In this document: positions 7,951 to 49,492 of the stretch, in pieces
How positions within the stretch are numbered: position 1 is the stretch's first letter
How the letters are laid out: each line of letters begins with the position of its first letter
Assembly (NCBI GenBank): GCA_021324795.1
Contig: JAJPIK010000044.1
Span: 1 to 64,000 of the forward strand
Direction: 5' to 3'
Length of the DNA stretch: 64,000 nucleotides
From: Chloroflexota bacterium
Lineage (GTDB): Bacteria; Chloroflexota; UBA6077; FW602-bin22; CADDYW01
Notes under the pieces: generated by a model
Database searches by the model: none
Seen by the model: only the letters and a program-made list of their open reading frames with translations
Told to the model about the DNA's origin: nothing
Program-made: the position numbers and the translations under genes

Positions 7951-8069
7951 GCCTCAAGCGTACCAGGATTCTCTCAAAGTGCATGGCAGATTCTCGGGGC
8001 ATTCAGTGTGGCCCATTAATTCAAAAGCTGCCTTGCCGAGATCATTACTGGGCAGTACAATGTATCTGA

Positions 8070-8341
8070 CCGACGGTGATGGAGACTCGTGCGAGGCCAG
8101 GGATTCCCCCAGAGAGCGGGCGGTTGGTGCGAGACCCGTAGTGACTGGCGTCGCGATTACCCTCCGGAGTCGCCGCCCGAACGCTCGTCTCTTGGCGAGC
8201 CAGTAGGCGCGGCCGGGCTGCGCCCGTTAGCGCGCTCTGAGGTCGGCTGGCCAGTCGGAAAGGTGGCTGCCCGTCGACGAATCGCGGTGGTACCGTGAAG
8301 GCAATGCGCCTCTCGCCCGGGTGGACGAGGGGCTTTTTTTG
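8070..8341 (+). promoter_or_regulatory. T-box leader, tyrosine specifier, upstream of tyrS
   Basis: Stem I elements are readable: GATGGAG (8078 region), the distal AGAGAG block at 8111-8116 followed by GGTTGGTGCGAGACC, and the specifier-loop strand GAT-TAC-C before CTCCGGAG. The specifier is TAC (8158-8160), a Tyr codon, matching the downstream tyrosyl-tRNA synthetase. The T-box sequence GGTGGTACCGTG is at 8286-8297. It is followed by a terminator hairpin GCCTCTCG/CGAGGGGC and a run of seven T ending at 8340. Uncharged tRNA-Tyr should favour the antiterminator and allow tyrS expression. Confidence 0.88.
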
Positions 8342-46202: not shown

Positions 46203-46862
46203 ACGGCTGAGAGTGAGCTGGCGATCCTGGTGCAGGTGCGCGATCAGCCGGGATCGCTCTATCAATTGACGCGCGTGATCTGGGAGCATCGCGCGAACAT
46301 CGGCTACGCCGACGTCGCCCCGGACGCCGAGGGATACGCCCGAATCTACCTTGAGCTCGAAAGAGTCGCGGAGCCGGCCGCGCTGATTGCCGAGGTCTCC
46401 GCGCTCGACGTCGTCGAGCGTGTCGAGCAGACGCCAACGTTCGGCAAGATCTATGGTAAGCGAGTCATTGTGATCGGCGGTGGTGCCCAGGTCGGCCAAG
46501 TAGCGCTGGGCGCGATTAGCGAGGCTGATCGCCACAACATTCGGGGTGAGCGTATTTCGGTCGATACGATTCCTTTGGTAGGCGAGGCAAACCTGGCAGC
46601 GGCAGTGCGCGCGGTCATCCGTCTGCCACGAGCCCGGATCCTCGTCTTGGCGGGGTCGATCATGGGGGGCGACATCACTCAAGCCGTGCGAGAAGTGCGT
46701 CAGCATGGCATCTACGTGATCTCGCTGAACATGGCGGGAAGCGTCCCCGAAGCGGCCGATCTCGTCGTCTCGGATCCCGTCCAAGCCGGTGTCATGGCGG
46801 TGATGGCCATCGCCGACACGGCAGCCTTCGACATCCGTCGGCAGCAGGGACGCCGGTATTGA
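46203..46862 (+). CDS. ACT-domain protein with DUF5612-like C-terminal domain
   Basis: About 219 residues. Residues 1-75 form an ACT amino-acid-binding domain (ELAILVQVRDQPGSLYQLTR, RIYLELERV). The rest matches the DUF5612-type module known next to ACT domains in methanogens: KRVIVIGGGAQVGQVALGAI, RGERISVDTIPLVGEANLAA, LAGSIMGGDITQAVREVR, ISLNMAGSVPEAADLVVSDP. No ATG, GTG or TTG stands behind the strong AGGAGGTG at 46190-46197; the codon at the right spacing is ACG at 46203, giving AESELAILVQ. GTG 46230 is the first canonical start but would remove the first strand of the ACT domain. It may sense an amino acid. Confidence 0.75.
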   Translation, partial: TAESELAILVQVRDQPGSLYQLTRVIWEHRANIGYADVAPDAEGYARIYLELERVAEPAALIAEVSALDVVERVEQTPTFGKIYGKRVIVIGGGAQVGQVALGAISEADRHNIRGERISVDTIPLVGEANLAAAVRAVIRLPRARILVLAGSIMGGDITQAVREVRQHGIYVISLNMAGSVPEAADLVVSDPVQAGVMAVMAIADTAAFDIRRQQGRRY

Positions 46863-46951: not shown

Positions 46952-47227
46952 TTACCCACCCGACGCCGCGGGAACAATCGAGACGTCGTCGCCATCTTTC
47001 AGTTGGGTGGTGAGACCAGCACCAAAGCGAATGTCTTCACCGCGAACGTAGATGTTCACGAAACGCCGAACCGAGCCATCTTCTTCGCAGATGCGATCTT
47101 TCAGGCCGGGAAATTGCTGACCGAGTAATTCGAGGCACTCGGCAACGGTGGTGGCGCTGGTGGTAACCTCACGCTGGCCGTCGGTCAAGCGCCGCAGGGG
47201 CGCGGGAATCTTCACAGTGACTGCCAT
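46952..47227 (-). CDS. ThiS/MoaD-family sulfur-carrier protein
   Basis: A 91-residue beta-grasp protein: MAVTVKIPAPLRRLTDGQRE, VAECLELLGQQFPGLKDRIC, FVNIYVRGEDIRF, LKDGDDVSIVPAASGG. The C-terminal Gly-Gly is exactly at the end, as required for adenylation and conversion to a thiocarboxylate sulfur donor. GGAGGAAG precedes the ATG. It is the third gene of the thrC-like/NIL/ThiS operon controlled by a SAM-I riboswitch and a Met T-box, so a role as sulfur donor for homocysteine or methionine synthesis is more likely than molybdopterin or thiamine. No E1-like or JAMM gene is in the window. Confidence 0.9.
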   Translation of the reverse strand: MAVTVKIPAPLRRLTDGQREVTTSATTVAECLELLGQQFPGLKDRICEEDGSVRRFVNIYVRGEDIRFGAGLTTQLKDGDDVSIVPAASGG

Positions 47228-47250
47228 GATACGCACTTCCTCCACGGAAA

Positions 47251-47329: not shown

Positions 47330-47572
47330 TTAGCCGGCGATCAGATCTCCCTCGACCGGATCGACCCGGACGCCGAGGTTGCTGACCCAATCTAAGGCCT
47401 GGCGAATGTCGTCCTCGTTTCCCTCGAGCTCTAAGACCACCCAACCGTAGGTCGCAGTGACGTCGGCGCGACGGATGTTCGTGACGACCGGAAATTGATG
47501 ACCAAGCTGATAGATCAGCGGGTCCTTGATGAGCTCGCCGGGAAAGGTGAGCTTAACCCGACGGATAGCCAT
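47330..47572 (-). CDS. NIL-domain protein
   Basis: An 80-residue single NIL (ferredoxin-like) domain: VKLTFPGELIKDPLIYQLGH, NIRRADVTATYGWVVLELEG, IRQALDWVSNLGVRVDPVEG. NIL domains occur at the C-terminus of the methionine importer ATPase MetN, where they bind methionine, and in NIL-ferredoxin proteins needed for homocysteine synthesis in methanogens. Here it is a stand-alone protein 12 bases after the thrC-like gene. It may be a methionine sensor or a partner in sulfur transfer. Confidence 0.85.
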   Translation of the reverse strand: MAIRRVKLTFPGELIKDPLIYQLGHQFPVVTNIRRADVTATYGWVVLELEGNEDDIRQALDWVSNLGVRVDPVEGDLIAG

Positions 47573-47584
47573 GTGGTTCTCCCC

Positions 47585-48826
47585 TCAGACGAGTGCCAGC
47601 TCTCGCTCACGCAGAGCTGCTTCGAACGATTCGATGGTCGGGGCGACCTGGAGCGGCCGGACCAGGTGGTCAACGACTGCTTCCTGCGTTTTGAGCCCAT
47701 TACCGGTGATGTAAGCTACGGTGACTTCGTCGGGATCGATCTTACCGTCCTCGACGAGCTTCTTCAAGCAGGCAATCGTGACACCTCCTGCCGTTTCAGT
47801 GAAGATGCCCTCGGTGCGCGCGAGTAACTTGATTCCTTCGATGATTTCAGGATCACTCGCCGCCGCGCAGCCGCCTTCGGATTCTTGGATGATCCGCAGG
47901 CAGTAGTAGCCGTCGGCGGGATTGCCAATCGCGACCGATTTGGCAATCGTATCTGGACGAACCGGCCGGACGTTTTCCGTACCGTTCACGTAGGAGGTGT
48001 AGACCGGCGCGCAGCCCAGCGGCTGGGCTGCACTCATCCGAGGCGGCGAGGAGTCGATCAAGCCGACCTTTTTCAGCTCATTGAAGCCCTTCCAGATCTT
48101 AGTGAAGAGCGAGCCCGAGCCAATCGGTGCGACGATGTGATCCGGGGCGCGCCAGCCGAGCTGCTCGGCAACTTCGAAGGCGAGGGTCTTGCTGCCTTCC
48201 GAGTAATACGGACGGACGTTAATATTGACGAAGGCCCAGTTGTACTGATCCGCCAGCTCCGAGCAGAGGCGGTTGACATCATCATAGTTTCCGTCGACGG
48301 CGACGAGAGTGGGCTCGTAGATCGCTGCGCCAATGATTTTGCCCTGTTCGAGGTTAGCCGGAATGAAGACGCAGGCGCGCAAGCCAGCACGAGCCGCGTG
48401 AGCGGCGACGGAACAAGCGAGATTGCCGGTCGAGGCGCAGGCGAGGGTGTCGAAGCCCAATTCAAGGGCTTTTGAACTGGCGACCGAGACTGGGCGGTCT
48501 TTGAATGAGTACGAAGGGTTGACCGAGTCATTCTTGAGGTAGAGCTCGCGGATTCCAAGCTCGCGTGCCAGATTATCCGCGCGGACGAGTGGCGTGCAGC
48601 CGGCGCCGATGTCGATGACGCGATCGCCGTTCACCGGTAGCAGATCACGATAACGCCAGATCGTGCGGGGGCCGGCCGCGATCTTTTCACGTGAAACGTT
48701 CGCCCGAATGGCGTCGTAATCGTAATCCGCCTCGAGGGGGCCGAAGCAATACTCGCAGACGTGGATTGCTTCGGTGGGATAGAGGCGGCCGCACTCCCGA
48801 CATTTGAGACCACGAATGTATGCCAC
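47585..48826 (-). CDS. thrC: Threonine-synthase-like PLP enzyme under methionine control
   Basis: A 413-residue fold II PLP enzyme. It begins with a zinc-ribbon-like segment (CRECGRLYPTEA, VCEYCFGPLEADYDY) followed by the core: PLP lysine at about residue 109 in SYSFKDRPV, ASTGNLACSVAAHAARAG, the phosphate-binding loop APIGSGSLFTKIW and TAGGVTIACLK. By sequence it is a threonine synthase acting on O-phosphohomoserine. However, its leader carries a SAM-I riboswitch and a T-box with a Met specifier, and it is followed by NIL and ThiS-like genes. I infer it may replace phosphate with sulfur to give homocysteine. GTG 48826 follows CGGAGGAATTAC. An internal parS-like site lies at 48685-48697. Confidence 0.85.
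   Translation of the reverse strand: MAYIRGLKCRECGRLYPTEAIHVCEYCFGPLEADYDYDAIRANVSREKIAAGPRTIWRYRDLLPVNGDRVIDIGAGCTPLVRADNLARELGIRELYLKNDSVNPSYSFKDRPVSVASSKALELGFDTLACASTGNLACSVAAHAARAGLRACVFIPANLEQGKIIGAAIYEPTLVAVDGNYDDVNRLCSELADQYNWAFVNINVRPYYSEGSKTLAFEVAEQLGWRAPDHIVAPIGSGSLFTKIWKGFNELKKVGLIDSSPPRMSAAQPLGCAPVYTSYVNGTENVRPVRPDTIAKSVAIGNPADGYYCLRIIQESEGGCAAASDPEIIEGIKLLARTEGIFTETAGGVTIACLKKLVEDGKIDPDEVTVAYITGNGLKTQEAVVDHLVRPLQVAPTIESFEAALRERELALV
48685..48697. promoter_or_regulatory. parS-like site inside the thrC-like gene
   Basis: TTTCACGTGAAAC is the perfect 13-base core of the bacterial ParB-binding site TGTTTCACGTGAAACA. It lies within coding sequence, as chromosomal parS sites often do, about 1.7 kb from parB. 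Confidence 0.65.
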
Positions 48827-48841
48827 GTAATTCCTCCGACA

Positions 48842-49206
48842 CAAAAAAACTCTCGCCCTACGAGGGACGAGAGGCTTATTCTCGTGGTACCACCCTTTTT
48901 TGCCAACGTCTCACGACGCTGACCTCGTCGAGTACGGGGCTTCGAGCCTTCGCTCAAACCCGATACCCCAGCCGCGCTAACGGGCGCTCTTGCCCCCTTG
49001 GGGCCCCGGCTGATCCTACTGAAGCAATCGCCCGAATCCGCGCGGGCTAAGAAGAAAATTCTTCGCTCTCTCGTCCGGTAGCGATTGCTCGTTCAGTCAG
49101 CAGCTCAGAGGTCATTTTCGGCCAGGGCGCTGACACCGCATCTCAGCTCACGCGGCTCTCTGTGGTCAGTCCCCTGGCGTACTCGTCCTCATCGTCGCCG
49201 ATGACT
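48842..49206 (-). promoter_or_regulatory. T-box leader with methionine (AUG) specifier
   Basis: Read on the minus strand, stem I begins GACGATGAGGACGAGTA (K-turn and AGTA loop), followed by ACAGAGAGCC and GCGTGAGCTGAG. The GAGG/CCTC helix fixes the specifier-loop strand as GAAA-ATG-A before CCTCTGAG. The triplet ATG aligns exactly with TAC in the tyrS T-box at 8158, so the specifier is Met. The T-box sequence GGGTGGTACCACGAG is at 48881-48895. A terminator (48850-48873) with a seven-T tract follows just before the thrC-like start. Confidence 0.85.
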
Positions 49207-49248
49207 TATTCAATTGTGCGACGCGCTCTCCTTCTTGCGATCTGTCAT

Positions 49249-49276
49249 CCGCACCCGGTCGCGCGACCGGGTGCGG
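49249..49276. repeat. Perfect 28-bp palindrome between the two riboregulators
   Basis: CCGCACCCGGTCGC is directly followed by its reverse complement with no loop. It sits in the transcribed leader between the SAM-I terminator and the T-box. It could separate the folding of the two RNAs or bind a dimeric protein. Confidence 0.85.
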
Positions 49277-49292
49277 AGCGTAACGCCCGATA

Positions 49293-49443
49293 ACAAAATC
49301 GCCCCGGCGATTGCAGGGGCGTCTTATCTACCGCTCCCCTTATCTCGCAGATCAACTCTGCCGGAGTTGGCACCATACACTTTGACGCGCTGGTTGCCGG
49401 GCTTCGTCGGGCCGTTTCCCTCTGCCACTCTGGATAAGAGCGC
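49293..49443 (-). promoter_or_regulatory. SAM-I (S-box) riboswitch with terminator
   Basis: The minus strand reads CTCTTATCCAGAGTGGCAGA, GGGAAACGGCCCGACGAAG, CCCGGCAACC, GGTGCCAACTCC and GAGATAAGGGGAGCG: all core SAM-I elements in order. P1 pairs CGCTCTTATC with GATAAGGGGAGCG. Right after the aptamer a hairpin CGCCCC/GGGGCG (49300-49321) and ATTTTGTT form an intrinsic terminator. SAM binding should stop transcription of the thrC-like/NIL/ThiS operon. Confidence 0.93.
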
Positions 49444-49463: not shown

Positions 49464-49492
49464 ACTGTACCATGCTCTCGCATGGTTGTCAA
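49464..49492 (-). promoter_or_regulatory. Sigma70-type promoter of the riboswitch operon, palindromic spacer
   Basis: A perfect TTGACA (49487-49492) and TACAGT (49464-49469) are separated by exactly 17 bases, about 20 bases before the SAM-I aptamer. The spacer contains CCATGC-GAGA-GCATGG, an inverted repeat that could be a repressor operator. Confidence 0.75.

Follow-up and report, generated by a model that had tools for sequence, protein, structure and literature searches.

The window analyzed here, a 64,000-nt stretch of DNA from a Chloroflexota bacterium, carries on its minus strand a three-gene operon (metM-like, NIL, and metO-like) preceded by a leader with two RNA regulators. An earlier note, made from the letters alone, had placed a SAM-I riboswitch and a Met T-box in series upstream of a thrC-like gene, within positions 48842 to 49443. 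Both elements were recovered in that order, SAM-I at 49440-49337 and then the T-box at 49204-48860 (minus), and the interval proved correct to within a few bases. The locus comprises the following features:

49464..49492, minus: sigma-70 type promoter, TTGACA-17 nt-TACAGT with TGG before the -10 (sequence and conservation)
49337..49440, minus: SAM-I aptamer (RF00162, 78.3 bits; P1 strands CTCTTATC and GATAAGGG)
49315..49341, minus: predicted SAM-I antiterminator, AAGGGGAGCG with CGCCCCT (folding and reading of the sequence)
49290..49321, minus: SAM-I intrinsic terminator with T-rich tail (folding; equivalents in other tandem leaders)
48860..49204, minus: T-box leader with Stem I, Stem II, Stem III, and antiterminator (RF00230, 85.2 bits, full length)
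49113..49115, minus: ATG (Met) specifier codon in the Stem I specifier loop (covariance and multiple alignment)
49021..49090, minus: helical insertion in the Stem II region, GAGCAATCGC / GCGATTGCTTC, unaligned to RF00230
48886..48892, minus: T-box bulge TGGTACC, whose UGGU is predicted to pair with the ACCA 3′ end of tRNA-Met
48843..48873, minus: T-box intrinsic terminator with T7 run (folding and sequence)
47585..48826, minus: metM-like gene (threonine synthase family, PLP enzyme), GTG start after GGAGG
47330..47572, minus: second gene of the operon, NIL-domain protein (PF09383)
46952..47245, minus: metO-like ThiS/MoaD sulfur carrier with Gly-Gly end (PF02597, NF041918)

A single promoter (49492-49464, minus) lies upstream of both RNAs, and its TTGACA-17-TA layout is kept in the related loci L002, L003, L004, L016, and L017. 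A search of the leader sequence revealed no promoter-like site between the SAM-I riboswitch and the T-box. The promoter spacer contains an inverted repeat, CCATGC/GCATGG, which was considered as an operator and rejected because it is not conserved. Likewise, a perfect G+C-rich hairpin at 49275-49250 (minus) was discarded as a third terminator or regulator, since it is without a T run and absent from relatives; its weak match to CRISPR-DR9 fell below the cut-off and is spurious.

Scanning of the whole window with Rfam models in Infernal returned the SAM-I riboswitch as the sole match exceeding the gathering scores. RF00162 aligned over its full length (model positions 1 to 108) to 49440-49337 (minus), with 78.3 bits against a gathering score of 44.4 and an E value of 1e-16, which bears out the riboswitch assigned by the earlier note. 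The 3′ strand of P1 (GATAAGGG, 49344-49337, minus) overlaps AAGGGGAGCG, which pairs in the antiterminator with CGCCCCT, i.e., the 5′ arm of the terminator. Folding and sequence geometry thus predict an antiterminator that excludes P1 plus terminator and vice versa, so that the aptamer is followed by a SAM-I expression platform in which a P1 strand is common to an antiterminator competing with a terminator. The terminator hairpin itself (CGCCCCTGCAATCGCCGGGGCG, 49321-49300, minus) is followed by ATTTTGTTAT. Elsewhere in the genome of the window, a single further SAM-I riboswitch was found (G000:C109:143786-143924, L039); it precedes a gene for a PfkB-family sugar kinase.

The T-box emerged from a search of 1 kb around the SAM-I riboswitch with permissive filters, which yielded a full-length RF00230 match at 49204-48860 (minus; 85.2 bits, E 7.8e-19). 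This score falls below the Rfam gathering score for the family, 93, so a default scan misses the leader. Only three of the eight T-boxes identified in the genome with RF00230 exceed 93, and the cut-off is therefore strict for this lineage: the valS and thrS leaders scored 90.6 and 90.1 bits, and the Tyr leader 40.8. The cut-off is a database threshold rather than a biological feature, and the biological features of a T-box are present. The antiterminator consists of GGG/CCC and CGAG/CTCG pairings with the TGGTACC bulge and competes with a terminator hairpin (CTCTCGTCCCTCGTAGGGCGAGAG, 48873-48850, minus) that runs into TTTTTTT at 48849-48843. Each RNA accordingly possesses a terminator of its own, as originally proposed, with hairpins and T-rich tails at 49321-49300 and 48873-48850. 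The Stem II extension (49090-49021, minus), of about 70 nt, varies in length among relatives.

The specifier had been read as ATG by comparison with a Tyr T-box around position 8158 of the window. That reference is real; it spans 8067-8315 and precedes a TyrRS-domain gene. In the RF00230 alignment, the metM leader reads GAA-A-ATG-A-CC, i.e., codon, one purine, and helix, with ATG at 49115-49113 (minus) followed by A and by the CCTC strand of the helix. To calibrate the specifier column, Stem I of the metM leaders was aligned with nine T-boxes from other loci, whose gene names (trpE, ileS, valS, thrS, and ilvB) were assigned by reading translations. The column holds TGG at trpE, ATC at ileS, GTC at valS, ACC at thrS, CTC and GTC before two acetolactate synthase genes, and TAC before the TyrRS-domain gene. 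ATG occupies it in 7/7 aligned metM leaders and is also the specifier of the eighth (L020), a Stem I codon that fits the methionine pathway. The gene after the Tyr T-box (L038:1701-3248) is an unusual fusion: a single open frame encodes a B3/4 domain (PheRS-beta type) together with a tyrosyl/tryptophanyl-tRNA synthetase domain.

An ACC triplet shares one base with the specifier (ATGACC), and NCBIfam scores the downstream gene as a threonine synthase; a T-box reading threonine, and thus SAM-I plus Thr T-box control of a threonine synthase gene, could be envisaged on these grounds. We regard this as very improbable. The alignment column reads ATG, ACC would fall partly within the helix, and relatives change ACC to GCC (L003) or ATC (L017 and L020) while retaining ATG. 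The bulge provides a second, independent check, because its fourth base pairs with the discriminator base of the tRNA. All three CAT-anticodon tRNA genes of the genome, one of which may encode a tRNA-Ile carrying a modified C, have A73, whereas the three tRNA-Thr genes have U73. UGGU, found in the metM leaders, is complementary to A73 plus CCA of tRNA-Met and mismatched to U73 of tRNA-Thr; the genome's own thrS T-box combines ACC with UGGA, and the trpE leader has UGGC. SAM control and the neighboring sulfur carrier gene also indicate methionine. The Thr specifier was therefore rejected and the Met assignment stands, as does the SAM-I model.

We then scanned 30 orthologous loci from Chloroflexota genomes for both elements. 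SAM-I was found in 24/30, the T-box in 8/30, and the two together in 7/30 (L001 to L004, L016, L017, and L020), always with SAM-I first; SAM-I alone is commoner than the tandem, and L021 has a T-box without SAM-I. A T-tailed terminator follows SAM-I in all tandem leaders examined. The arrangement is uncommon, made of known parts, and found in several lineages. On a maximum-likelihood tree of MetM, the tandem leaders are scattered and imply three changes, at least two of which are forced by well-supported branches, so that gain or loss of the SAM-I/T-box pair occurred at least twice. Of 80 named metM loci, drawn from several phyla, 24 have SAM-I; no further tandem appeared, and T-boxes were confined to genomes already counted. 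The SAM-I of L062, on the same contig as L010, is truncated at the contig edge, upstream of metF and metM. The leader of L030 (G049) matched no Rfam model; about 300 bases upstream of its metM, a SAM-riboswitch-like sequence can be recognized by eye (GGGGAGAGCCGGCCC...AAGCCGGGCAACCC), possibly a divergent relative. Finally, a MoaD-like gene lies shortly downstream of metM-like genes on archaeal contigs (L094, L100, L104, and L120) and in cyanobacteria (L081 and L090), loci in which neither SAM-I nor a T-box was detected.

The predominance of loci with SAM-I alone, and the one with a T-box alone, would fit a situation in which the two elements do not work in series, one being active in vivo and the other a degenerate remnant or reserved for other conditions. 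This is improbable given that both elements have preserved their core sequence, the specifier, the bulge, and the T-tailed terminators despite divergence of the leaders elsewhere, and that no promoter-like site separates the RNAs.

The controlled gene probably starts with the GTG at 48826; the start of the mechanical ORF, at 48844, adjoins the T run of the T-box terminator and is less likely. The protein matches threonine synthase models (TIGR00260, 303.6 bits versus 167.1; PRK08197, 309.4 versus 303), and none of the matches listed is to a separate MetM model, so that a thrC model match cannot decide between ThrC and MetM. The original label thrC-like is refined to a candidate MetM-like homocysteine synthase encoded beside a sulfur carrier gene. 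Members of the metM-like subfamily are 56 to 85% identical to the protein of the window; for the remaining threonine-synthase-like genes of these genomes, the identity is at most about 43%. The sulfur carrier gene is found downstream of metM in 29/29 loci with a visible flank and in 69/77 of the wider named set, and a NIL-domain gene is downstream in 14 of the 29 and in 60/80, respectively. The product of thrB makes O-phosphohomoserine, and thrB lies just downstream of metM-metO in G006 and G007; metF is upstream of metM in L010, and in G003 metM and metH are divergent. An ACT-domain plus DUF5612 protein is encoded convergently with the operon of the window, at 46230-46862 on the plus strand.

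These neighborhoods suggest that the target is probably a MetM-like homocysteine synthase candidate, not the ordinary threonine synthase of the genome, and that the operon probably makes homocysteine for methionine. A Met T-box is expected on a gene of this kind with a sulfur carrier gene alongside. MetM function would account for both the SAM sensor and the Met T-box, and the apparent mismatch between a threonine gene and a Met specifier would vanish.

Consistently with such a role, the genome of the window has MetH, and no full-length match was found in it to MetX, MetA, the PF01053 enzymes (MetB, MetC, and MetY), or HcyBio/DUF39. This genome is 94% complete, so a missing gene may reflect an assembly gap; yet the same genes are missing from 14 further metM genomes, which brings to 15 the metM genomes without any other detected homocysteine route. 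G008 (88% complete) is the only genome without all of these routes and without metM. The presence of metM was associated with the absence of PF01053 enzymes (15/18 against 18/43; Fisher P = 0.004, only indicative because the genomes are related). Nine genomes have metM and MetX together. In the metM-bearing G020, adjacent metX- and PF01053-like genes (C73:447497-450034) are split into several frames, a state suggestive of decay of the other route or of assembly errors.

With the RNAs as described, the gene might still encode a true second threonine synthase, or a bifunctional synthase/deaminase, with methionine control dividing O-phosphohomoserine between pathways. Curated threonine synthase models do match above cut-off, and a cyanobacterial relative, 51.6% identical to MetM, displayed threonine synthase and deaminase activity in vitro with no clear homocysteine synthesis (PMC12172450), which makes enzyme function in this clade less than certain. 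We nonetheless consider this unlikely, if slightly less so than only one element being active. Another thrC, 35% identical to the metM-like protein, adjoins thrB on contig C27 of the same genome, directly before it; a competitor for O-phosphohomoserine should not be turned on by methionine shortage; the sulfur carrier neighbor is near-universal; and no other homocysteine route was detected in the 15 metM genomes. With the target as a candidate homocysteine synthase in a genome without another detected route, both switches would report on methionine.

The anatomy of the leader leads us to infer the following course of events. A transcript initiated at the 49492-49464 promoter would meet the SAM-I riboswitch first. 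Bound SAM would allow P1 to form and block the antiterminator, and transcription would end at around 49300, whereas at low SAM the polymerase would arrive at the Met T-box. There, the second terminator (48873-48850) would form unless uncharged tRNA-Met paired with ATG and UGGU and stabilized the antiterminator. Expression of metM-NIL-metO would hence require low SAM and uncharged tRNA-Met jointly, and the threonine-synthase homologue would convert O-phosphohomoserine to homocysteine, with sulfur delivered via the carrier protein. We assign a probability of roughly 85% to this explanation as a whole, i.e., serial SAM-I/Met T-box control of a homocysteine operon. The more general proposal is one that we favor with less assurance: that in Chloroflexota, on separate branches of the metM tree, a SAM-I off-switch and a Met T-box on-switch in series form an RNA coincidence gate with two inputs for methionine and govern a carrier-protein homocysteine route, the only one detectable in several of these lineages.

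A leader in which a metabolite sensor and an unrelated tRNA sensor, both of RNA, stand in series would offer a clean natural case of reading the two fates of a single amino acid, and it would be well suited to measuring the combined effect of tandem terminators. In addition, the regulators supply an independent line of evidence for placing a large family with the annotation threonine synthase in methionine synthesis, in lineages that yielded no known homocysteine route. In 2018, at least one homocysteine pathway was stated to be still undiscovered (Price et al., PMC5764234); MetM, which was published in 2024, could account for part of this gap. Tandem riboswitches, metM, and the SAM riboswitch of metM are already published; a metM leader in which a Met T-box comes after SAM-I appears to be undescribed, in that the freely accessible literature searched contained no description of this order or of such a leader on metM.

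Several known systems resemble parts of this arrangement. The metE gene of Bacillus clausii, in work by Sudarsan from 2006, reportedly carries tandem SAM and adenosylcobalamin riboswitches, either ligand alone switching the gene off. Like the metM leader, it places two switches, each terminating independently, one after the other on a methionine gene, but its second input is coenzyme B12 instead of a tRNA. In the ubiG operon of Clostridium acetobutylicum, Andre is said to have reported in 2008 an S-box that controls an antisense RNA and a Cys-specific T-box; both classes act on one sulfur operon, whereas in the metM case they occupy the same sense leader. Contiguous T-box and SAM riboswitches occur in Bacillota, with ssuABC entries listed as 'T-box SAM' (8%) (PMC12452182). 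These also combine the two classes in one leader, but with the T-box listed first and on transporter genes, and the main text of that paper contains no SAM-then-T-box order; here, SAM-I comes first, the T-box is Met specific, and the leader belongs to metM in Chloroflexota. The MetM/MetO pair of Streptomyces albulus makes homocysteine from O-phosphohomoserine, and metM has an upstream SAM riboswitch (Hasebe 2024, Appl Environ Microbiol 90:e01247-24, as reported in PMC12172450). A threonine-synthase-like homocysteine synthase under a SAM riboswitch, with metO named alongside, is common to both cases; the account in PMC12172450 mentions no T-box, whereas the operon described here has a Met T-box with its own terminator and a NIL gene between metM and metO. 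Finally, the SAM-I riboswitch of Xanthomonas campestris makes one methionine-pathway leader sense both SAM and uncharged tRNA-Met (PMC7270179). It responds to uncharged initiator tRNA through a single aptamer and expression platform, mainly at the translational level and without a specifier or T-box motif, whereas the metM leader consists of two complete transcriptional elements in series.
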